Part shown: positions 1 through 42,190 of the stretch, piece after piece
Position numbering within the stretch: the first letter of the stretch is position 1
How the letters are laid out: each line of letters opens with the position of its first letter
Translations under genes and position numbers: made by a program
Source of the DNA: Clostridia bacterium
GTDB taxonomy: Bacteria; Bacillota; Clostridia; Christensenellales; Aristaeellaceae
Length of the DNA stretch: 64,000 bases
Assembly: GCA_017448975.1 (NCBI GenBank)
Contig: JAFSKN010000054.1
Coordinates: forward strand, 62,001-126,000
Reading direction: 5' to 3'
The notes under the pieces: model-generated
Seen by the model: the letters and a program-made list of their open reading frames with translations, nothing else
Databases searched by the model: none
Told to the model about the DNA's origin: nothing

Positions 1-1709
1 AATTCAAGGACTGTCATACCCGCTTCTTCCTTTACTTTTCGTCCTGCGCGTCGGATTCGTTCTTTGCCTATTTCACATATATTATGTGGCGCATGAATGC
101 TGTCTAATAAAGCTACTGCATTCTTTGCAACCTTCTTTGCATTATCACTACTTGCTTTCTCGGGATCGATGATCTCTGGCAATTGAACGAGAATAAAACG
201 ACGCTGACCTTGATCGAACATATTCTCCTGTATAACAGCATGCGCTGTAGTACCTGAGCCTGAGAAGAAGTCAAGGATTATATCATTTTCGGATGTAATC
301 CTCTTGATCAGATAACTTAGAAGACTGACTGGCTTGGGATACGAAAAAGGTTTTGCAGTAAACAAGTTGTCAATATCGTCATTCCCTTTAGCAGTGAAGA
401 ATTTCTTATCCGTCCATATCGTCGAAATACCAGCACCAGCCGTTTTATAATCCTTGATCTCGATAGTGGGAATTCTCGGGTTATTACTAATACGATAGGT
501 TGTCAATTCACCAGATAGTATTTTCTGAATAATGCCTTCCGACAAATACTGAATTCCGTAAGGTTGAGATGTTTTATCTATAGCTGTTTGAATTACTTTG
601 ATGTATCCTTTTGCATAATCACTTAGAAGACGATTTGGAATTAATCGCCATACGCATTGCTCACCCTTCGCAGATATTGGCCAGATAGCTGTTACACCTG
701 ATGGAACATCATCAGTTTTATACACGAAATCTCCCAGTGCCCCTTGATAAGATCCATCATCTATTCTTTCCTGAAGACTTTTTCCGCAACCGACTATACA
801 TCCTTCATCATCAACATAAATTGGATAGGCTTGATTTGGTCTCTGAATCTGATTGAATGTTGCAAGAGTCATACCGTGATATGGTGAAGCATACTCTTTC
901 ATATCTTCTTCAGTGGGAATTGGGGCAAATTCCTTCGGCGCAATAAAAACCAAATACTCATGTGTGATGTTAAAACCACTATTCGGTTTTCCACCTGATG
1001 TCTGAATGGTAACGGCCATTACTTGCTTGTTGCTAAACAGATGCTCACAAAGCATAACTAAATTATGAACCTCATGATATCCAATGCTTATAATGAGAAC
1101 ACCATCTTCAGATAACAGGTTCTTTGCTACACGTAGTCTCGGATAAACCATATTTAACCAGTCCGTATGAAACCGCCCGTTGCTTTCCGTATTCTGTTCC
1201 AGCCGGTTCCCCTGATCGTCAAACTGGCCGCTGCGTTCCAGATAGCCTTCGGCGTCCTCGGCAAAATCATCCTCATACACAAAATCATTACCCGTGTTGT
1301 ACGGCGGGTCAATATAAATCATCTTCACTTTGCCAAGATAGGTTTCCTGCAACAGCTTCAGCACATCCAGGTTATCCCCCTCGATGTACAGGTTTTCGCT
1401 GTCCCACCCGCCGGGCGTGCCGTCCTTGCCCACGCTCTCCGCCCGCACAGGCCGCAGCGTCGCCGCGATGGGCGCGTTCGCCGCCAGCATCGCCTTCTTT
1501 TTATCCGGCCATGTGAACTGATACCGCTCCTCCCGGCCTTCCACCACATGGGCGGAAATCTCCTGCATCAGCACGTCCTTGTCAATGGCACGGACAACCT
1601 CGCCCGTTTCAGGGTCAATCGTTTCCGTCACGGCATTGGGAAATAAAGCCGCCAGCTTTTTATAGTTTTCATCCGCCAAATTTGGCGTGTGCATTCTCAT
1701 TTTTTTCAT
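1..1709 (-). CDS. Type III-like site-specific DNA adenine methyltransferase (Mod), C-terminus beyond window
   Basis: This reading frame is open from an ATG at 1709 to the window edge, giving 569 codons of a longer protein, and has a ribosome binding site (GGAGG) 8-12 bases upstream. Motif IV DPPYNTG lies at about residue 134. The AdoMet-binding motif DFFSGSGTT lies at about residue 480. That order, catalytic motif first, is the beta class typical of type III Mod subunits, which methylate adenine and contain the target-recognition region between the motifs. It is the last visible gene of the leftward operon that starts with the helicase at 7017, and a Res endonuclease gene would be expected to the left. 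Base composition changes abruptly inside the gene at about 1150. Confidence 0.85.
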   Translation of the reverse strand, partial: MKKMRMHTPNLADENYKKLAALFPNAVTETIDPETGEVVRAIDKDVLMQEISAHVVEGREERYQFTWPDKKKAMLAANAPIAATLRPVRAESVGKDGTPGGWDSENLYIEGDNLDVLKLLQETYLGKVKMIYIDPPYNTGNDFVYEDDFAEDAEGYLERSGQFDDQGNRLEQNTESNGRFHTDWLNMVYPRLRVAKNLLSEDGVLIISIGYHEVHNLVMLCEHLFSNKQVMAVTIQTSGGKPNSGFNITHEYLVFIAPKEFAPIPTEEDMKEYASPYHGMTLATFNQIQRPNQAYPIYVDDEGCIVGCGKSLQERIDDGSYQGALGDFVYKTDDVPSGVTAIWPISAKGEQCVWRLIPNRLLSDYAKGYIKVIQTAIDKTSQPYGIQYLSEGIIQKILSGELTTYRISNNPRIPTIEIKDYKTAGAGISTIWTDKKFFTAKGNDDIDNLFTAKPFSYPKPVSLLSYLIKRITSENDIILDFFSGSGTTAHAVIQENMFDQGQRRFILVQLPEIIDPEKASSDNAKKVAKNAVALLDSIHAPHNICEIGKERIRRAGRKVKEEAGMTVLE

Positions 1710-1732
1710 GAGATTAGCCTCCAATTTTTCTT

Positions 1733-2290
1733 TCATTCGTTACCTTCATTAGTGACAGATTCTTCGATTTCTTCTGTTTCTGTTTGCAATGGAGGCGGCA
1801 ACTTAATTAACCGGTTAATAATGTAAACGACTTTTCTGCAATGAATTATTTCTTCAAATACCTCCTTAAACTTCTCCAAATTATCTATTTCAATATGTTT
1901 TTGCAGAGATGCCTCTTCAGCAATTGTCGGCTCAATCAATAAAGAAGCAGGTAGGGTATCGTTACAAGTTATCTGGAACAATGACAACTCATATTTATGT
2001 ATATCATCAACAATTAGGAATTCATACGTTTTCTTTTTATACAGATTTGATGCATCTGTAGCATCCTTGCTGAGCGTGGCATGATAGTGACCATTTGTAA
2101 TCCCACCGAAAGCATCTGCCAGAGTTGCAGCTACGTCTTTCCAGGAAACTCCCGCACGTACTAACACAGCTGTTAGTTTTCCTTCAGTTGCTTGTGCAAG
2201 CTCGGCCGCTTGTTGCCGGATAAAATCAATTACAGGTTGAGAAGGAAGTTCATTTTGATTGGAAATAATCCATATTGTTTCCTTCGCCAT
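1733..2290 (-). CDS. Unrecognised 185-residue protein in the defence operon
   Basis: I do not recognise this protein. It begins MAKETIWIIS, has no signal peptide or membrane segment, is mixed alpha/beta in character, and ends in a Glu-rich tail (ETEEIEES). Its start codon directly follows the stop of the upstream nuclease gene with no spacer, and a GGAGGA ribosome binding site sits inside the end of that gene, so the two are translationally coupled. The methyltransferase starts 23 bases downstream. The gene is AT-rich like the nuclease. An immunity, sensor or nuclease-partner role would fit the context, but nothing in the sequence shows it. Confidence 0.75.
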   Translation of the reverse strand: MAKETIWIISNQNELPSQPVIDFIRQQAAELAQATEGKLTAVLVRAGVSWKDVAATLADAFGGITNGHYHATLSKDATDASNLYKKKTYEFLIVDDIHKYELSLFQITCNDTLPASLLIEPTIAEEASLQKHIEIDNLEKFKEVFEEIIHCRKVVYIINRLIKLPPPLQTETEEIEESVTNEGNE

Positions 2291-3139
2291 TTATGGTTCC
2301 TCCTTATTAATAAGTTCAAAGGTTATTGGAAGGTGATCACTTATAACCTTTTTGGGTATATTGCCATTAGTCAATAAATCATTTCCTATTTTGCTCACGA
2401 TTTGCAGTGAATCAGGACAAAAATATGATAACAGAGAGTGTTTTATAAGCACCTGATCAAAACAAAACCATTGAGGTGCTACTTGTTGATAAAAAAATGT
2501 ACCTCTCGGCTGACTTGCAGATTTAGCATCATGATAAACGAGCATCATTGGATTATAAAATAAATCACGTGTTTCTCCATGCAAAGTACGGGAGGTAAAG
2601 CGCATTTGGTGCCTGAATAATTTTGCATTGAAACCTGAAAACTCTATCATAGGAGCATCATACGGATTCATGTTATAATCTCCAATAACTATGGTTCTCT
2701 TGTCGTTATACTTTTCCTCCATTCGAGCTATTGCACTTAGTGCCCGAGAAATATCCGCACGTTGACCTTCGCAGTAATTTGGATCGGATCGGGACGTTAA
2801 ATGCACTACAACAAGATTAATTCCAAGGGGCTCGATCCTAAGGAGGCAGAATCTGCTGTCTTCTTTATAATAATACTGTGTGGTAACTGCTGTATCTTTG
2901 ACAAACACTTGAATATCACCCTGCTTTGCTCGATTATCGATATGTTCAACAAGATGATATCCAGAGTTGGCCATAAGTTCCATATTACTTGGAGCCTCAC
3001 ATACAGCAATAACGCTAAAATCCTCGCTAATTCCAAGATTAATAATGCGGTCAATATTTTTCTGTACACGATGGACGTTCCAAAAAGCAAATCCAACTAT
3101 ATTACTGATACCATACACCCCCTTTCGTTTACCAAGCAT
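2291..3139 (-). CDS. Endonuclease/exonuclease/phosphatase (EEP) family nuclease in the defence operon
   Basis: The 282-residue protein carries the full set of EEP-fold signatures: the N-terminal FWNV segment, a metal-binding Glu in VCEAP, the HLTS segment, GDYNMNP with catalytic Asp and Asn, a central CFDQVLI and a C-terminal SDHLPI with the Asp-His pair. EEP enzymes are metal-dependent nucleases or phosphatases; DNA cleavage is the likely activity here given the neighbours. There is no signal peptide, so it is cytoplasmic. It starts 5 bases after the DUF4391 gene and has no strong ribosome binding site of its own, suggesting coupling. The gene is AT-richer than the helicase and DUF4391 genes, so it may have been added to the operon later. 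Confidence 0.85.
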   Translation of the reverse strand: MLGKRKGVYGISNIVGFAFWNVHRVQKNIDRIINLGISEDFSVIAVCEAPSNMELMANSGYHLVEHIDNRAKQGDIQVFVKDTAVTTQYYYKEDSRFCLLRIEPLGINLVVVHLTSRSDPNYCEGQRADISRALSAIARMEEKYNDKRTIVIGDYNMNPYDAPMIEFSGFNAKLFRHQMRFTSRTLHGETRDLFYNPMMLVYHDAKSASQPRGTFFYQQVAPQWFCFDQVLIKHSLLSYFCPDSLQIVSKIGNDLLTNGNIPKKVISDHLPITFELINKEEP

Positions 3140-3144
3140 TTACT

Positions 3145-3747
3145 CTACAAGTGACAGCGAAGTTTTTCGATTTTTTTCTTATATTCAAGTTTCTTTTTGG
3201 GCTGTTTCTCCGTCCAAGCTATCTTTTCCAGTTTGGTGATTTCCTTCTCCAGTTTCTGCCGCTTTTGTTGGGCGGCCAATTGTTCGTCCAGCGTCTGCCC
3301 CTGGGCCACTTCCACCCCGGCAACATTTGCCACGATGTTTTCCCAAATTTTATCCAAATCCAGTCCGTCCAGCGTTACTTTCAGGGCGTCAGGCGCAGCC
3401 CAGGGGCCAAGGATCAGGTGGGTCTGCCATACGGAAAGGGACTGCTTTCCTTCGCATTCTAACACAAGCAATAGCTTCTGACGAAATATTTTCGTCAGAA
3501 AAGCAATATTTTGCTTGTCGAAATCTTTCCGTTTCAGTTCCACCAGTAAAACAAAGAAAGAGTTGATGTTTTCACCCATCGCAATGTTGACCGAAACGGG
3601 AGAAACTTCATTTGTCAGCGTGATACGCGCAATATCGGCGTCAAAGCTCTTGCGGCGCTCCGTACTCATTTCCGCGCCGAAATGCTCGAAAACTTTTTTC
3701 TTTGTAATTACCTTGTATATCTCTGTCCCTGCCGGAAGCCCCAACAT
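3145..3747 (-). CDS. DUF4391 family protein
   Basis: This 200-residue protein resembles the DUF4391 family, which I know as a companion of helicase and methyltransferase genes in type III-like restriction clusters. It begins MLGLPAGTEIYKVITKK, where the LP-x-x-T-x-x-x-K pattern is typical. A compact central domain follows, and from about residue 150 a charged Gln/Lys/Glu-rich stretch looks like a coiled coil. No enzyme motif is visible. It lies 39 bases after the helicase, on the same strand, in a gap that holds a short AATTACGAATTACG-like repeat. Its function is unknown; a structural or adaptor role for the helicase is a guess from gene order. Confidence 0.75.
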   Translation of the reverse strand: MLGLPAGTEIYKVITKKKVFEHFGAEMSTERRKSFDADIARITLTNEVSPVSVNIAMGENINSFFVLLVELKRKDFDKQNIAFLTKIFRQKLLLVLECEGKQSLSVWQTHLILGPWAAPDALKVTLDGLDLDKIWENIVANVAGVEVAQGQTLDEQLAAQQKRQKLEKEITKLEKIAWTEKQPKKKLEYKKKIEKLRCHL

Positions 3748-3757
3748 ATTCCCATCT

Positions 3758-3787
3758 CCAATTACGCATTACAAATTACGAATTGCT
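3758..3787. repeat. Short direct repeat between helicase and DUF4391 genes
   Basis: Two imperfect copies of AATTACGNATTAC-like sequence fill the gap between the helicase stop codon and the DUF4391 ribosome binding site. It looks like one arm of a simple-sequence palindromic element. The matching second arm is not present here. Confidence 0.4.
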
Positions 3788-6700
3788 CATTTCACCACCA
3801 GGAAGCAAATCAGCTCAAAATCGTCCAGCCCCTTGATTCTCCCGGACAGAAAGCTGACCTGGCTGCCTTTGAGGAAACTGTCAATATCGCTTTCCTCCTT
3901 GACGTGAATGATGGAATCAATGGCGTCGGACAGCAGTTCGGAGTACAGCTCCATGTCCCGTCCGTCTTTCGTTTCCCGATTGAAAGCGCGGCACAGCGCC
4001 TTGTCTGGTTCGGAATGTCCCTTGCAGATCAGCCGCATCCGATCCAGCAGCTCCTTCGGGCTCAGGTGATCGCAGACCACTTCGCCGTTCTCTCCGATAT
4101 ATACCATATAAAACGGATGCAGTCGGTTCTGGTTGCCGATGTTCACATCATTGCTGATGTTTCGCAGGACGAAGATCACCCCGGGCGGCATATCATCCGT
4201 GGCGGATACGACGGCATGCATCCCGTGGGGCGCGTGCTCCACGTCGTCATGGTGCTTGATATATTCCAGCAGGTCAAGCCGGAACTCGTTCAGGCCCAAA
4301 TCCATGATGGATATGCCGCTTTGCATATCCTCTATATCCACCACTTCTTCCATCAGCCGCTTGAGCTGCTGGCGGCGATATTCCAAATCGCCCTTTTCCT
4401 CCAAATCAATAAGGTTATCGTCGCCGGTGGAGGTCATGACGGAAATTTTCATGCGGGTCTCCACCCGGTCTTTCAGGTTGATATACTCGTCCAAATCCAT
4501 GTCCGGCCAGAAATTCACCAACTGTATTTTGGCGTTACGAGAGCCGATACGGTCAATGCGACCGAAGCGCTGAATGATTCGCACGGGGTTCCAGTGAATA
4601 TCGTAATTCACCAGGAAATCACAGTCCTGCAAGTTTTGGCCTTCGGAAATACAGTCGGTGGCGATCAAAACGTCTATATCGTCCTTGCTGCCGGGCATCA
4701 GCAAATCCCGTCCCTTGGAAATGGGAGAGAAGCACGTAAGCACCGTATTCAAATCGCCGCTCAGCTTTGGAATGGTGGTTTTTCCGTCCACGCTTCCGGT
4801 AATCTCTGCGGAATGCAGATGGTAGCGTTCCATCACATAACGGCTGACGTTTTCATACAGGTAATCCGCCGTATCGGAAAAGGCCGTGAAAATGATGATT
4901 TTCTTGTTCCCCTCATTGATAGGGGCCGCCATTTTTTTATCAATGGCTTTAAACAGCGTTTGCAGCTTCGTATCGTAAATGGGGGTAATGTCGGCAACCA
5001 TAGAGGAAAGCAGTTCCAGATTGTCCCTGTCGCTGGTCAATTGATGCAGCCAGGATTTGTAATCCATATCTGCCAGGTCGATTTTCACTTTCTTCCCTAT
5101 CTGGAAAACGCCGCCGTTCTGGTCGTCATCATCAAATTCGGAAGCGTCCGAAATCTCCACCAGATCAAGAACGCAGGCCCCGCTGGTGTATTGTTCAATC
5201 GTCTGAATGGTTTGATCAATGAACTCCCGTATCCGGTCAAGCGTCAGCCGGAAGGAAAAGACTGAGCTTTCCAGCCGTTTCAGCAGGTTAATAGCCATCA
5301 AACGGCGGATGCCTTGCTCACGGCCCTGCATGGTCAGATGGGTCGCTTCTTCATCATCCACGTCCATATACTTGCCCAGTTTGGACGGCAGGATAAAATG
5401 TGACGGGGTGTAGACGGTCAGGTTCAGTTCATTCAAGAGCGTGTAAATATCATTGTAATTGATGGCGTTGTTTAAATCGGTCAGATGGGGACGGTATGCA
5501 ATCGGCTTGAGCCGTTCCGGGAATTTGCCAATTTCCGCAGTCGAATAGTATTTTTCGATATGGCGGCGGGAACGGGCAATGGTCACGCTGTCCAGCACTT
5601 CAAAGAAATCAAAGTCCAGCATTTTGAGCAGCGAGCCGGTGGTGCGCTGTTCCGGTTTCAGTTTACTCCAAGCATTGAAGGCTTTCTGCGCCTGCTTGAA
5701 TATCTCGTTGATCGGTTTGCTGGTATCCAGCCGTTCGTCAATGTATTCTGGATTCCCCTCGTAAGCAAGCGCAAGCTGATTCCGCAGATCAGTAAACCGA
5801 TTATTGACGGGGGTAGCGGAAAGCATCAGAACTTTTGTCTTTACACCCGTCTGGATCACTTTCCGCATCAGCGTTTGATAGCGGTTCTCCCGTTTCCCTT
5901 TATGCACGCCTTCGCCGCCTTCACCGTTGCGGAAGTTGTGGCTTTCATCAATCACGATCAAGTCATAGTTGCCCCAATTCAGCAAGTTCAGATCAAGACC
6001 GTTGGAAACGCCCCGTTCACGGGAAAGATCGGTATGATACAGCACATCATAGCGCAGGCGATCTGTAGCAATGGGATTATTGACGTAGTTTCCCTTATAG
6101 GTGCTCCAGTTTGCGGAAAGCTTCTTCGGGCACAGCACAAGCACGGATTTATTGCGGCCTTCGTAGTATTTGATGACGGCCAGGGCGGTAAAGGTTTTGC
6201 CCAAGCCTACGCTGTCCGCAAGGATGCAGCCGTTATACTTTTCCAGTTTGCTGATAATGGCTAATACAGCATCCCGCTGGAAATTGTAAAGCATGCTCCA
6301 AATTTTGCTTTGCTTAAAGCCTGTAGCTTCGTTGGGCAGAACGTCTTCCGATATGTCTTCCAGGAATTCATTGAAGATATTATAGAGGGTGTAAAAGTAT
6401 ATGAAGTCAGGCGAGTTTTCTCGGTAGGCCGTGGAAATGTTTTCTATAACAATTTCAGTTACGTCCTGCAAGCGCTTGCTGTCATTCCAAATCTCGTCGA
6501 ACAGCCGGATAAACTGTCTGCCGTTTTCAGTACTTTCAGTGCGCGTAACGATATTATAGGCATTGTTGCCGCGCTCGCAGCCTAAATCCACCGTCGTAAA
6601 TCCGCTCACTGGCATGAAGGTGCTTTCATCTACCGTCAGAAAGCCCATCATCTGTTCCTGCGTAATATTGGATTTGAAAGATACCTTTTTCCGTATCCAA

Positions 6701-7017
6701 TCCGCGCATTCTTTTGCGATTGCCCGCTGTGTCAATTCATTGCGCAGCTTTATTTCAAATTCTGTTCCATACAGACTGCGTTCGCGGGTCAATCGGGGGA
6801 TGAAGAATTCACGTTTTGCTTTGGGCGTTTTTTCTTCTATGAATGTGGGAGAGGTAAAAATGAACCGGACTTCCTCAACATGTTCGAGTTGGCGCTTCAG
6901 TTCCTGATAGGCATAAATAGAAAAGCAGGCAGCAGCGATGGACAGCTTGCTGCCCTTTTGAATGGTCTGTAACAGGTCATCCCGAACCGTTTGCGTAACA
7001 TTGTCCAGTATTTTCAT
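3787..7017 (-). CDS. SNF2/superfamily 2 helicase with N-terminal PLD-like domain
   Basis: This protein of about 1076 residues is an ATP-dependent DNA translocase of helicase superfamily 2. Visible motifs are Walker A (DSVGLGKT, about residue 267), motif II DESHNF (about 355), motif III LSATPVNN and motif VI QRFGRIDRIG (about 813). The first 180 or so residues look like the PLD-type domain often fused to such helicases, but I see no HxK catalytic motif, so it may not cut. I start it at the ATG at 7017, 6 bases after a GGGGG ribosome binding site, rather than at a TTG four codons upstream. It is the first gene of the leftward defence operon. Confidence 0.85.
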   Translation of the reverse strand: MKILDNVTQTVRDDLLQTIQKGSKLSIAAACFSIYAYQELKRQLEHVEEVRFIFTSPTFIEEKTPKAKREFFIPRLTRERSLYGTEFEIKLRNELTQRAIAKECADWIRKKVSFKSNITQEQMMGFLTVDESTFMPVSGFTTVDLGCERGNNAYNIVTRTESTENGRQFIRLFDEIWNDSKRLQDVTEIVIENISTAYRENSPDFIYFYTLYNIFNEFLEDISEDVLPNEATGFKQSKIWSMLYNFQRDAVLAIISKLEKYNGCILADSVGLGKTFTALAVIKYYEGRNKSVLVLCPKKLSANWSTYKGNYVNNPIATDRLRYDVLYHTDLSRERGVSNGLDLNLLNWGNYDLIVIDESHNFRNGEGGEGVHKGKRENRYQTLMRKVIQTGVKTKVLMLSATPVNNRFTDLRNQLALAYEGNPEYIDERLDTSKPINEIFKQAQKAFNAWSKLKPEQRTTGSLLKMLDFDFFEVLDSVTIARSRRHIEKYYSTAEIGKFPERLKPIAYRPHLTDLNNAINYNDIYTLLNELNLTVYTPSHFILPSKLGKYMDVDDEEATHLTMQGREQGIRRLMAINLLKRLESSVFSFRLTLDRIREFIDQTIQTIEQYTSGACVLDLVEISDASEFDDDDQNGGVFQIGKKVKIDLADMDYKSWLHQLTSDRDNLELLSSMVADITPIYDTKLQTLFKAIDKKMAAPINEGNKKIIIFTAFSDTADYLYENVSRYVMERYHLHSAEITGSVDGKTTIPKLSGDLNTVLTCFSPISKGRDLLMPGSKDDIDVLIATDCISEGQNLQDCDFLVNYDIHWNPVRIIQRFGRIDRIGSRNAKIQLVNFWPDMDLDEYINLKDRVETRMKISVMTSTGDDNLIDLEEKGDLEYRRQQLKRLMEEVVDIEDMQSGISIMDLGLNEFRLDLLEYIKHHDDVEHAPHGMHAVVSATDDMPPGVIFVLRNISNDVNIGNQNRLHPFYMVYIGENGEVVCDHLSPKELLDRMRLICKGHSEPDKALCRAFNRETKDGRDMELYSELLSDAIDSIIHVKEESDIDSFLKGSQVSFLSGRIKGLDDFELICFLVVK

Positions 7018-8674: not shown

Positions 8675-9748
8675 ATGTCTGTCACGAAAGACGGAAACAC
8701 AGGGCGTTGGATGAGCCAGATCCGCGTCACAGACTGGACGGGAAATGTCATTCACAAAAAGAAACGGGGCTTCGCCACCAAGAAGGAAGCCTTGAAATGG
8801 GAACAGGAAATCACCAATCAGGCCACTGGAAGCGTGGGCATGACCTTCGGCAGCTTTGTGGAAATCTATTACAATGATCTGAAAGAACGTGTAAAAGAGA
8901 CCACTTTGCGGGGAAAGCATTGGATGATCGACACCAAGATCACCCCTTACTTCAAGAAACTGCAGCTGAACGAGATCAAGCCGACCGACATCCGCAAATG
9001 GCAGAACATGATGACAAGCTATCGGGATCAGGGCGGAAAACCCTATTCTCCAACTTACATTCGGACGGTGTACAACCAACTGACGGCGATTTTCAATTAT
9101 GCCGTGAAGTATTACGGCCTGAAAGAGAATCCCTGCCATAAAGCGGGCGGTGTCGGGAAAAAGAAAGCGGACGAAATGCAGTTCTGGACGAAGGAGGAAT
9201 TCAATACCTTCATCGAGGCTGTAAAGGATGATGTAGTGGTTTATACCATCTTCATGACGCTGTACTATTCCGGCATCCGGGAAGGAGAACTGCTTGCGCT
9301 GACCCCGGCGGACATCGACCTTGAAAAGAAAACGCTGACGGTCAACAAGAATTATCAGGTCGTGGGCGATAAGGAGATGATCACTTCTCCGAAAACGCCC
9401 AAGAGCAATCGGGTGATCCCCATTCCCGATAAGCTGTGCGAGTGTCTGGATTTGTACATGGGACTGTGCTACGGCTTGAAACCTTCGGATCGTCTCTTTC
9501 CTTATCGGAAAGAATTCCTGTATCGAGAACTGAATAAGGGATGCAAGAAATCCGGGGTTAAGAAGGTACGAATTCATGATATTCGTCACAGCCACGCATC
9601 GCTTCTGGTAGAATTGGGATTCTCCCCGCTGCTGATCGCGGAACGCTTAGGCCATGAAAAGGTACAGACGACGATGGATACCTACAGTCATTTATACCCC
9701 AACAAGCAGGTGGAGGTCGCCAAGCAGCTCAACAGCCTGATCCCATGA
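8675..9748 (+). CDS. int: Tyrosine recombinase/integrase of the island
   Basis: This 357-residue site-specific integrase starts after a perfect AGGAGGAAG ribosome binding site. It has an N-terminal arm-binding domain (residues 1-60), a SAM-like core-binding domain (about 65-160) and a C-terminal catalytic domain. The catalytic residues are visible: Arg in GIREGELL (about 202), HDIRH (about 300), the His of LGHEK, and the nucleophile Tyr in DTYSHLYP (about 336). It catalyses integration and excision at the guaA 3' end. Its stop codon is 135 bases from the guaA stop codon, and the genes converge, leaving room for one attachment site with arm-type binding sites. Confidence 0.92.
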   Translation: MSVTKDGNTGRWMSQIRVTDWTGNVIHKKKRGFATKKEALKWEQEITNQATGSVGMTFGSFVEIYYNDLKERVKETTLRGKHWMIDTKITPYFKKLQLNEIKPTDIRKWQNMMTSYRDQGGKPYSPTYIRTVYNQLTAIFNYAVKYYGLKENPCHKAGGVGKKKADEMQFWTKEEFNTFIEAVKDDVVVYTIFMTLYYSGIREGELLALTPADIDLEKKTLTVNKNYQVVGDKEMITSPKTPKSNRVIPIPDKLCECLDLYMGLCYGLKPSDRLFPYRKEFLYRELNKGCKKSGVKKVRIHDIRHSHASLLVELGFSPLLIAERLGHEKVQTTMDTYSHLYPNKQVEVAKQLNSLIP

Positions 9749-9883: not shown

Positions 9884-9900
9884 TTATTCCCACTCGATGC
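9884..9900. other. attR: Probable attachment core: 3' end of guaA
   Basis: The last codons of guaA (ending GAGTGGGAATAA on the minus strand) are the conserved target reported for islands that insert at guaA. The duplicated left copy should lie outside the window, so the exact core cannot be measured here. Confidence 0.5.
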
Positions 9901-11428
9901 TGGCCGGGGGTTTCGTCGTCACGTCCAGGACGACGCGGCTGGCGTGGGGCACTTCGTTCACGATGCGGGCGGAAACCGTCGCGATCAGCTCATAGGGGAG
10001 ACGCGCCCAGTCGGCGGTCATGAAATCGTCGGTAGTGACGGCGCGGAGGGCGATGGTGTAATCGTAGGTGCGTTCGTCGCCCATGACGCCCACGCTGTGC
10101 ACGCCGGTGAGCACGGTGAAATACTGGTTCACCTTTCGGTCCAGGCCGGCCTTGGCAATTTCCTCCCGGAAGATGGCGTCGCTTTCCCGCACGATCGCCA
10201 CCTTTTCGGGCGTCACCTCGCCGATGACGCGGATGGAAAGGCCGGGACCGGGGAAGGGCTGCCGCCAGACCAGTTCGCGGGGGAGGCCCAGGGCTTCGCC
10301 CAAGGCGCGCACTTCGTCCTTAAAGAGCATGCGCAGGGGCTCGATCAGTTCGGTAAAGCCCAATTCTTTGGGCAGGCCGCCCACGTTGTGGTGGCTTTTG
10401 ATGACGGCGGCGTTGGTGCCCTGGCCGCTTTCGATCACGTCGGAGTAAATGGTGCCCTGGGCGAAATAATCCAGCTTGCCCAGCTTCGCCGCTTCCTCCC
10501 GGAAGACTTCAATGAAATCCCGGCCGATGATGTGGCGTTTTTCTTCCGGTTCGGTGACGCCTTTGAGGTCGGCAAAGAATTTTTCCGAAGCGTCGGCCCG
10601 GACGAAGCGCACCGGGAACAAATGGCTGAACACATGGCACACCTGCTCGCTTTCGCCCTTGCGGAGCAGGCCGTGATCCACAAACACGCAGGTGAGGCGT
10701 TTGCCAATGGCGCGGTAAATCAGCGCCGCCGCCACAGAGGAATCCACGCCGCCGCTGAGGGCCAGCAGGACCGTTCCGGCATCTCCTGTCACTTCCCGAA
10801 TCTGTTTAACGGCGGTTTCGGCGTAGGCGTCCATGGTCCAGTCGCCCGCGCAGCCGCAGATATCGTACAGGAAACTGCGGATCAGGCGCTTGCCCTCGTC
10901 GGTGTGGGTCACTTCGGGATGGAACTGCACGCCGTAAACGCGCCTTTCCTCGTTCGCCATGGCGGCTACGGGGCAATTGTCCGTTTCGGCGATGGCATGA
11001 AAGCCGGGCGGGCACTGCACCACCTGCCAGGTGTGGCTCATCCAGCAGGAGGAGGAAGCGCTCATGCCCGAAAGCAATCCCGCCTGCTCTTTCATGCGCA
11101 CGGTGACGCGGCCGTATTCCCGTTCCTGGGCCTTTTGCACCTTGCCGCCCAGCAGGTGGGCGGTCAGCTGCATGCCGTAGCAGATCCCCAGCACCGGCAC
11201 GCCTAAATCATAAATGGCCGGGCTGATATGGGGCGCGTCCGGGTCGCATACGCTGGACGGGCCGCCGGACAGGATGACGCCCGCAGGCTTGCGCTGTTTG
11301 ATTTCCTCCGCCGGGATATTCCAGGGCACCACTTCCGAAAAGACGCGGTTTTCCCGCACCCGCCGGGCGATCAATTGGGTATACTGTCCGCCGAAATCCA
11401 GGATGACGATTTTCTGATGGTCAGGCAT
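9884..11428 (-). CDS. guaA: GMP synthase (glutamine-hydrolysing)
   Basis: This 514-residue enzyme converts XMP to GMP using ATP and the amide of glutamine. It has an N-terminal class I glutamine amidotransferase (nucleophile Cys83 in GICYGM, His-Glu in QFHPE), an ATP-pyrophosphatase domain (LSGGVDSS, about 228-234) and a C-terminal dimerisation domain ending SIEWE. The start has AAAGGAGG upstream. The conserved amidotransferase loop usually read as WMSHGD is WMSHTW here (Thr133-Trp134). It is the last of the leftward genes asnB, GNAT, PAP2, XRE and guaA, and its 3' end borders the island. Confidence 0.96.
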
Positions 11429-39926: not shown

Positions 39927-40676
39927 TCAGATTGAAATGCGTTTCACATTCAATCTCTTTTCCATGAGCGATATATAATCATCATTCTTATCACAAAGAA
40001 TTGCTTTGAACCCGTTTTTTATCGCAGATGCGCCCGTAGTTCCTGAGCCGGCCATAGGGTCAAAAACCATTTGGTTTTCTGCCATTGCCATAAGTAATAA
40101 CTTGTCAAATACAGCTTCAGGTTTTTGGGACGGATGACCCGTTTGTTCATTCTTACCAACGAAACCAATTAGTAAAGGCGCTTCAATAACAGTGGGAGGC
40201 CCCGGCACAAACCGCATTTTTCCAGTTTCAAGTTTTTCTTTTTGTGTTTCATTCAAAAAGTGTTCTGGATGCAAGGAATACCCTCGACGCATGAATTGAA
40301 TACACGCATTTTGACTTGAACGCCATCCACGAATAACAGACGGGCAGTTTTTGTAATACCATGTCAACCATGATGCCATATAAAAACCTTTAGGAGCATA
40401 TCGAACATAAGGTCCGATTACTTCCGGGAATCCCCACAAATACAACAATTCCGACAATTCGCCAGATCTTTCTAACAACTGATTAATAAATGAATCATAT
40501 TCATCTATCGGTAAAACGTTACCTTTGCCCTTGTTATACCATGGGTCAAGCATAGTACATGCAACATGTATTTCTTCTGTTTTCAAAAGGCTAATAGAAT
40601 CAAAAACATCCATTGGAGGTAGTATAGCTATCCCTTGTTTGTTAATTGATTCAAATATTATGTCTTTCACGCTCAT
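39927..40676 (-). CDS. Beta-class DNA methyltransferase of a restriction-modification pair
   Basis: The 249-residue protein has the catalytic motif IV as DPWYNKG (about residue 44) and the AdoMet motif FDPMAGSGTTG near the C-terminus (about 208), the order of beta-class N6-adenine/N4-cytosine methyltransferases. Its start overlaps the stop of the endonuclease gene as ATGA, so the two are coupled. It should protect host sites from that endonuclease. The gene is strongly AT-rich relative to pyrF and mfd on either side, consistent with transfer. Target sequence unknown. Confidence 0.85.
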   Translation of the reverse strand: MSVKDIIFESINKQGIAILPPMDVFDSISLLKTEEIHVACTMLDPWYNKGKGNVLPIDEYDSFINQLLERSGELSELLYLWGFPEVIGPYVRYAPKGFYMASWLTWYYKNCPSVIRGWRSSQNACIQFMRRGYSLHPEHFLNETQKEKLETGKMRFVPGPPTVIEAPLLIGFVGKNEQTGHPSQKPEAVFDKLLLMAMAENQMVFDPMAGSGTTGASAIKNGFKAILCDKNDDYISLMEKRLNVKRISI

Positions 40677-42190
40677 TTTGTTTTAACAAATCCTTTCTCC
40701 AGCAGCCATTGAATATCTTCAAATGGTTCTACATGGGAACGCCATAACAACTCCAACATTGGTGCAATCTCTAAAGCGCGTTTTATCGCATCAGCTTGAA
40801 GCAATCCCCAATAAGTTGAATATCCCGGAACAGTCAAATAACCCGCGATTTTGTCCGCCGGAATCGGCTGACCATAATTTGCAATGGTATCAAGTATGCA
40901 ATATTTTCTTACAACGCTTTCTCTACTGGCTGATATAACAAACGGTTCTGTTTCAGATAAAAGCGCGTTTCTGATAGCGGAACTAATTCCCGTCTCTATT
41001 TCGTCAAGAGAATAGCCATCATTCAGCAATTTTTGAATTACATCATCTTTCTTACCGCCTGTCATCAAAATAGCATGTTCGATTTCCAGCGTAGTAAGGA
41101 AGCTTATACCCTGTAATTCTCGGCGCAGCTTCAACGGTGCTGTACAAATCTGTATGAAATTCTTTGTCGATGGTTTTGCAAGCATTTTTCGCAAATCACC
41201 GTTCAAAGAAGAAAAATAACCTGCCCCATCGAGGTACTCAATAAAAACAGCTTGTGGAAACTTTTTTAATGTTACTTCACGGCTGCTGTCGGTTTGGTCT
41301 ACAACTTTATGTGAAACACTTCCAGAATCCCCGGCGTAAAACTGACTCTGAATAAAGACCTTTGCGCCGCTTTCCCTTGACTGATATGGAATAATGAAAT
41401 CATATTTCCTCTTTTTAATCTGCGGGTTTGCTTCGATATCTCCAAGAATTTGTCCGATTTCAACATCCTGTGTATTGTAATCTGTTCCTGCTTCAAGCCC
41501 CCATTCTGTCATATATGAACGGAGAACAGTTTCCGGAATGTGCCCTTGCGTTGCTGTAATAGAACCGCGAGATTGAAAAACAACAATAGGGCTAAGCAAG
41601 GAATCTTCATTTCCCATCTGCTTTTGCGTATAGTAAGCGGTTCCTAAACTCCATAACTGTTTGGCATAATCTTCATCTGAAATGATAAGATGAAAATAGC
41701 TTTCAAGAAATCTTTCCTGAAACTCTGCTTTACCATCTGCTTGAATAATGATCTTTGTTACTGCGTCAAACTGTAAGGTTCGTGGCAGTTGTTTTTTAAC
41801 CCAACGTCCAGAACTATTCTTCTGTGGATATTCGCAAATTCCGTAGGTATTGCGTAACAAAAGCGGGAACTGACATTTCAAATTGTTATCCGTTTTTCCT
41901 GTGACAAGAAGCAATACCCCACATATACTATTCAAAATAGCTTGTTTTTCATCTTCGTTCTGACCTGAAATAAGATTGACCGTATTGTGTGCAAGAGCAG
42001 ATGAAGAACAACTCGATAAAAAATTAAAGTTGTTCGTGATTTGTGCCATATAATCAAACCCGCGCTTCATACCGTCCAAATTCACCTTGAATTGCGGCAT
42101 GTCTCGAATTTCGCCAAGTGAAGGTGTAACCCAAATATCAAATTCAGACATTTTTTCTTCGAGCGATTCATCATAAAGCCGTAGTTTCAT
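40673..42190 (-). CDS. Putative type II restriction endonuclease
   Basis: This 505-residue protein starts at the ATG at 42190 (GGGGTG upstream). It is called an endonuclease because of its coupled methyltransferase and a segment around residue 260 (KYDFIIP, then VFIQSQFYAGD, then SVSHK) that looks like a PD-(D/E)XK-type core with Asp and Gln-x-Gln residues. The rest is not recognised. A C-terminal part (about 400-505) resembles a winged-helix region. It is AT-rich and has its own promoter at 42242. It could instead belong to another nuclease class; direct evidence is limited. Confidence 0.65.
   Translation of the reverse strand: MKLRLYDESLEEKMSEFDIWVTPSLGEIRDMPQFKVNLDGMKRGFDYMAQITNNFNFLSSCSSSALAHNTVNLISGQNEDEKQAILNSICGVLLLVTGKTDNNLKCQFPLLLRNTYGICEYPQKNSSGRWVKKQLPRTLQFDAVTKIIIQADGKAEFQERFLESYFHLIISDEDYAKQLWSLGTAYYTQKQMGNEDSLLSPIVVFQSRGSITATQGHIPETVLRSYMTEWGLEAGTDYNTQDVEIGQILGDIEANPQIKKRKYDFIIPYQSRESGAKVFIQSQFYAGDSGSVSHKVVDQTDSSREVTLKKFPQAVFIEYLDGAGYFSSLNGDLRKMLAKPSTKNFIQICTAPLKLRRELQGISFLTTLEIEHAILMTGGKKDDVIQKLLNDGYSLDEIETGISSAIRNALLSETEPFVISASRESVVRKYCILDTIANYGQPIPADKIAGYLTVPGYSTYWGLLQADAIKRALEIAPMLELLWRSHVEPFEDIQWLLEKGFVKTK

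Follow-up and report, generated by a model that had tools for sequence, protein, structure and literature searches.

The stretch examined here, the window, comprises 64,000 nucleotides from a Clostridia bacterium of the family Aristaeellaceae (assembly GCA_017448975.1, contig JAFSKN010000054.1, positions 62,001 to 126,000). At its left end lies a leftward operon that encodes, in the order given by an initial annotation of this DNA, a helicase, a DUF4391 protein, a nuclease of the endonuclease/exonuclease/phosphatase (EEP) superfamily, a 185-residue protein and the methyltransferase Mod, with gaps of 39, 5, 0 and −4 bases between successive genes (Table 1). Beyond window base 1 the operon continues on the same contig with the rest of Mod, a 91-residue open reading frame (ORF), RhuM and Res. 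Our subject is the pair in the middle, the EEP nuclease and the 185-residue protein, which we call the partner. These two genes are a stand-alone two-gene module.

Table 1. Genes of the leftward operon within the window (window coordinates; aa, amino acids; R-M, restriction-modification; GC3, GC content at third codon positions)
Feature	Position	Strand	Remarks
SNF2-type helicase, PADLOC "HKD+Snf2" class, 1076 aa, operon core	3787..7017	-	class as named by PADLOC; HKD residues putative
DUF4391 protein, 200 aa, R-M operon core	3145..3747	-	PF14335, 2e-22
EEP-fold nuclease, upstream gene of the pair, 282 aa	2291..3139	-	GC3 0.304
Partner protein, downstream gene of the pair, 185 aa	1733..2290	-	GC3 0.306
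Mod, type III-class DNA methyltransferase	1..1736	-	578 of 714 aa inside the window

The nuclease has the EEP fold. The residues N, E, H, D-x-N, D and D-H, which we take to be the catalytic ones, were invariant across 47 aligned EEPs of the family and are intact in the window protein, as the initial annotation had held. The closest solved folds include the repair enzymes ExoIII, NExo and TDP2, and identity to solved EEP structures was 12-18% in the structural alignments listed. The window protein matched a family profile made without it at 2.9e-56, and matched no family in PADLOC (version 2.0.0, up to E 1) or NCBIfam. It would be a metal-dependent phosphodiesterase, probably a DNase. In fold and catalytic residues it resembles EEP DNases and phosphodiesterases such as ExoIII, NExo, TDP2 and the endonucleases of non-LTR (long terminal repeat) retrotransposons, but it differs from all of these in its near-constant partner gene and its mobile, patchy distribution. 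Among the 100 nearest relatives the family was present in the window's own genome only. In the class it was found in 3 of 391 genomes and is therefore no housekeeping gene there; a housekeeping identity was what the initial annotation had named as fatal to its reading.

When the nuclease was first searched, matches came up in records of an Acinetobacter plasmid and of phages, and in each of them the nuclease was followed by a small gene. Scanning one genome per species with a pattern then identified 55 loci. Their ORFs, together with those of the plasmid, phage and own-genome loci, were searched with profiles, which yielded 61 distinct full-length EEPs of the family, close kin included (three Acinetobacter phage copies and two Klebsiella plasmids). 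The partner profile was seeded by position with seven partners, and the others were recruited by score. Eleven ORFs shorter than 240 residues, from 8 loci, were excluded as fragments, and the short EEP ORFs of loci L052 and L075 and a second copy in L084 were assigned neither as intact nor as broken. Six partnerless EEP-like proteins of 347-402 residues (L067, L073, L074 and L078-L080) were left out as another family, an exclusion made after their lack of a partner had been noticed; the tree places all six on one side of a branch with support of 100/99.

A partner-family ORF lay directly downstream of 60 of the 61 full-length EEPs. The main profile matched 55 of these partners; the other five were matched only by a gammaproteobacterial profile, strongly in L085 (1.6e-10) and weakly in L081, L084, L088 and L089 (2e-4 to 8e-4). 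The 61st EEP, from Psychrosphaera (L068), is full-length and adjoined by a decayed partner. The two genes overlapped in 28 of the 60 pairs, were 0-35 bases apart in 30 and lay farther apart in 2, and every EEP locus in the class genomes was paired. The EEP and partner trees run parallel, with a mirror-tree Spearman coefficient of 0.79 over 57 non-redundant pairs, uncorrected for host ancestry; none of 1000 permutations reached this value, the maximum being 0.20. Five loci had a partner ORF beside a broken EEP (L019, L023, L061, L063 and L086).

The partner itself belonged to no family in Pfam, NCBIfam or PADLOC 2.0.0 (the last searched up to E 1). When 44 partners were compared with PADLOC, five families were matched, by one member each and all at E 0.003 or worse. 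The window partner matched a family profile made without it at 2.2e-10, and nothing else matched among 403 proteins. In the class the family occurred in 4 of 391 genomes, the fourth being a weak 51-residue match. Partners were fused to an OLD-like TOPRIM domain in three loci (L034, L041 and L052) and to HATPase_c_4 in two (L058 and L062). These fusions suggest that the partner domain may serve as an adaptor that gathers effector domains.

Pairs were found in about 13 phylum-level groups, many of the entries being metagenome bins, and the tree mixes phyla, placing for example a cyanobacterium, a Desulfobulbaceae member and a planctomycete near one another. Several carriers are very small plasmids. 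The annotated content of a Klebsiella ColRNAI plasmid of 3,541 bases (L081) is the pair, Rop and a replication gene. E. coli pEC904 (L082; 3,066 bases), a 3-kb plasmid already known from PMC8190604, has an annotation of two genes: the EEP and a partner roughly 106 residues long. Further carriers are an Edwardsiella plasmid of 3,311 bases (L083) and a metagenome plasmid of 5,168 bases, for which 12 ORFs are annotated (L088). The pair was also found in a Vibrio inovirus, in Acinetobacter phages, where an integrase gene precedes it (one copy is broken), in a contig judged by eye to be Mu-like (L020), on a conjugative plasmid, and in prophages and chromosomes. No DNA-level match to the pairs of Aeromonas, pEC904 or Klebsiella was found in E. 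coli genomes. The 60 bases upstream of the pair contained no end of a same-strand gene in 35 of 43 loci. Six of ten hand-picked neighbor genes matched PADLOC models, among them AbiD, overlapping the EEP start in L007, FRG (L008), AbiEi (L035) and TIR (L029). The window's own genome has a second, distant pair (L005, G000:C53:7732-9036), preceded by a SIR2-like gene; its partner has 380 residues, and the extra C-terminal part has no Pfam match. In a Bacteroidota contig the pair is flanked by genes taken by eye to be nuoC and nuoD (L065:8416-9784).

The initial annotation had taken the tight spacing of the window genes as a sign of one functional unit with the R-M genes, and had considered that occurrence of the pair in many contexts without helicase and Mod would speak against this. 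In dozens of loci that carry the pair no relative of this helicase, DUF4391, Mod or Res was found, and the claim was thus overstated.

The host operon is a type III-like R-M operon, as had been proposed. Mod matched MTase_III at 7.7e-148, and Res, two ORFs beyond Mod, has ResIII and RE_endonuc domains, its score against the NCBIfam type III model being 363 bits versus a cut-off of 564. Mod and Res thus stand in one operon and match type III models. The operon differs from ordinary type III R-M in having an SNF2-type helicase, and usually DUF4391, before Mod, together with variable cargo in two slots. The helicase is distantly DrmD-like and in this recalls DISARM; membership was rejected, the NCBIfam DrmD score being 150 against a cut-off of 610.

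Relatives of the helicase occurred in 6 of the 120 nearest genomes (E <= 1e-60) and, at E <= 1e-80, in 24 of 391 class and 19 of 396 order genomes, some of them shared. We analyzed 36 operon stretches, 28 of them complete (helicase, Mod and Res); the survey left out L101, L102, L116, L119 and L173, whose contigs end in the operon, and did not cover G113, G597 and G503. DUF4391 was present in 26 of the 28, missing in L171 and L176. Ten complete operons had no cargo and 18 contained other genes, which lay before Mod in 16 of the 28 and between Mod and Res in 13. Pfam searches with 43 of the 46 unlabelled cargo ORFs (all except a 90-residue ORF in L146, a 292-residue ORF in L161 and a 177-residue ORF in L166) matched YhcG, Fic, DUF2971, TIR, ThsA-Macro, ThsB-TIR, AIPR, Abi_C, AlbA_2 and others, with one or two members each; RhuM was also among the slot cargo. 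These genes are unrelated to the EEP pair, and several of them belong to defense. One Mod-Res slot holds adjoining ThsA-Macro and ThsB-TIR genes that look Thoeris-like (L165:9363-10708). Two proteins encoded in the slot before Mod, of 635 residues (L098:10216-12123) and 601 residues (L144:5387-7192), are 32% identical and without a Pfam match, an unnamed cargo family.

The EEP pair was found in 0 of these 28 complete operons. The co-occurrence with DUF4391, helicase and Mod that the initial annotation had proposed to look for was thus not seen in them, and the pair is no constant part, and probably no subunit, of the type III-like system. In a relative from the same family whose helicase is 90% identical, a 635-residue gene stands at the pair's place and a 356-residue gene replaces RhuM and the 91-residue ORF. 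The pair has a GC content of 0.38 (GC3 0.30), versus 0.47-0.51 (GC3 0.50-0.65) for the helicase, DUF4391, Mod and Res; the 91-residue ORF is AT-rich like the pair, and RhuM is not. Because the pair is absent from the close relative and differs in base composition from the core, it looks like an extra inserted module, as the initial annotation had suggested. The difference in GC3 also indicates that it is probably a late arrival, a guest in one slot of the host operon.

The pair also occurs in a second R-M operon. In an unrelated Clostridia contig (L042) it lies within a type I operon, hsdM-hsdS-pair-hsdR, with gaps of 0 bases to hsdS (PF01420, 3.2e-22) and 20 bases to hsdR, which is a point in favor of some link between the pair and R-M. 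Embedding in R-M was seen in 2 of the 57 non-redundant pairs, the window and L042. A screen of 71 loci with the R-M proteins of these two found no third case, although other R-M types could escape it; the sole further matches were to RhuM, in L058, and over 66 residues, in L043.

Outside the operon, a tyrosine integrase gene lies next to the 3' end of a gene identified by eye as guaA (window 8675-9748 and 9884-11428). Another integrase gene, sharing its Pfam domains, is found on the left side of the operon (L003:6325-7416). A search of 79 kb for a flanking repeat of the guaA 3' end found none; the single 14-base match, 28 kb off, was taken as chance. Window positions 40001-42000 have a GC content of 0.397, against 0.55-0.65 elsewhere in the window past base 10000, and may be another foreign insert.

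We consider it probable that the pair is a self-contained mobile module, a partner-controlled EEP effector that spreads horizontally and is a guest in the window's operon, not an R-M subunit. It would function as a nuclease effector under partner control, most likely directed against phages or plasmids. The EEP protein would act as the effector, and the partner would bind it and either keep it inactive or aim it. On sensing an invading phage or plasmid, the partner would release or load the EEP, which would then cut nucleic acid of the invader (or of the host). In the window, where the module lies at the DUF4391/Mod junction, it would be coexpressed with the R-M genes and would form a second layer of defense alongside R-M. 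A bolder proposal, which we advance tentatively, is that the pair is an unrecognized two-gene immune system, an EEP nuclease with a new sensor or adaptor family, small enough for 3-kb plasmids and filamentous phages and taken up repeatedly by R-M operons, and that the helicase-DUF4391-Mod-Res operon is a two-slot docking scaffold for modules of this kind.

The main rival is a toxin-antitoxin or addiction system, with the EEP as toxic nuclease and the partner as antitoxin, which would maintain 3-kb plasmids and for which phage defense would be secondary or absent. The type II layout, a two-gene operon of candidate toxin and small partner, was seen in 60 of 61 cases, and the pair resembles such systems in being a small coupled bicistron, one product of which is an enzyme potentially harmful to DNA, and in its presence on phages and on very small plasmids that have hardly any other genes. 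A partner was kept beside a broken EEP in five loci and the reverse was seen in one, but an excess of 5:1 is too slight for a test. Of the five, L019 and L086 are kin, and L061 and L063 may be sequencing errors. Unlike in a toxin-antitoxin system, a full-length EEP persists in L068 beside its decayed partner, and the partner matches no family and shows no recognized DNA-binding domain; in five loci it is joined to TOPRIM or HATPase_c_4. We regard this explanation as unlikely, though worth keeping in view.

The pair might instead guard the R-M system, silent while R-M works and firing once a phage inhibits it, as PrrC does for EcoprrI. That a guard nuclease can be encoded within an R-M locus is known from the type I locus of EcoprrI (PMC12707154), and two independent embeddings are seen here, at DUF4391/Mod in the window and at hsdS/hsdR in L042. 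PrrC is an anticodon nuclease, whereas the window enzyme has the EEP fold and a separate partner gene, and most of its copies were not seen in R-M operons. The rarity of such embedding among the non-redundant pairs, within the reach of our screen, and the pair's absence from the other complete helicase-Mod-Res operons speak against a guard, which we think improbable. A housekeeping or repair nuclease with its chaperone would fit the repair enzymes among the nearest solved folds, but the family is rare and patchy in the class and is carried by phages and plasmids, which makes this very improbable.

Among the literature matches listed, in which subscription papers are thinly covered, there was no description of the EEP/partner pair and none of DUF4391 with a methyltransferase, and term look-ups in PMC10853773 and PMC11090510 gave no hit. 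"EEP" in the portions of PMC8092258 and PMC11341870 at hand is the name of a phage. In the available part of PMC12458937, the ARMADA type II YprA helicases have EEP domains that are predicted to be inactive, fused to the helicase and in an antiphage setting; the window EEP is, by comparison, a separate gene with an intact active site. What seemed two extra genes of one operon become a widespread module with a partner family unmatched in Pfam, NCBIfam and PADLOC. The two-slot R-M operon is a defined place to look for unnamed defense genes, and several of its slot proteins are likewise without a family.
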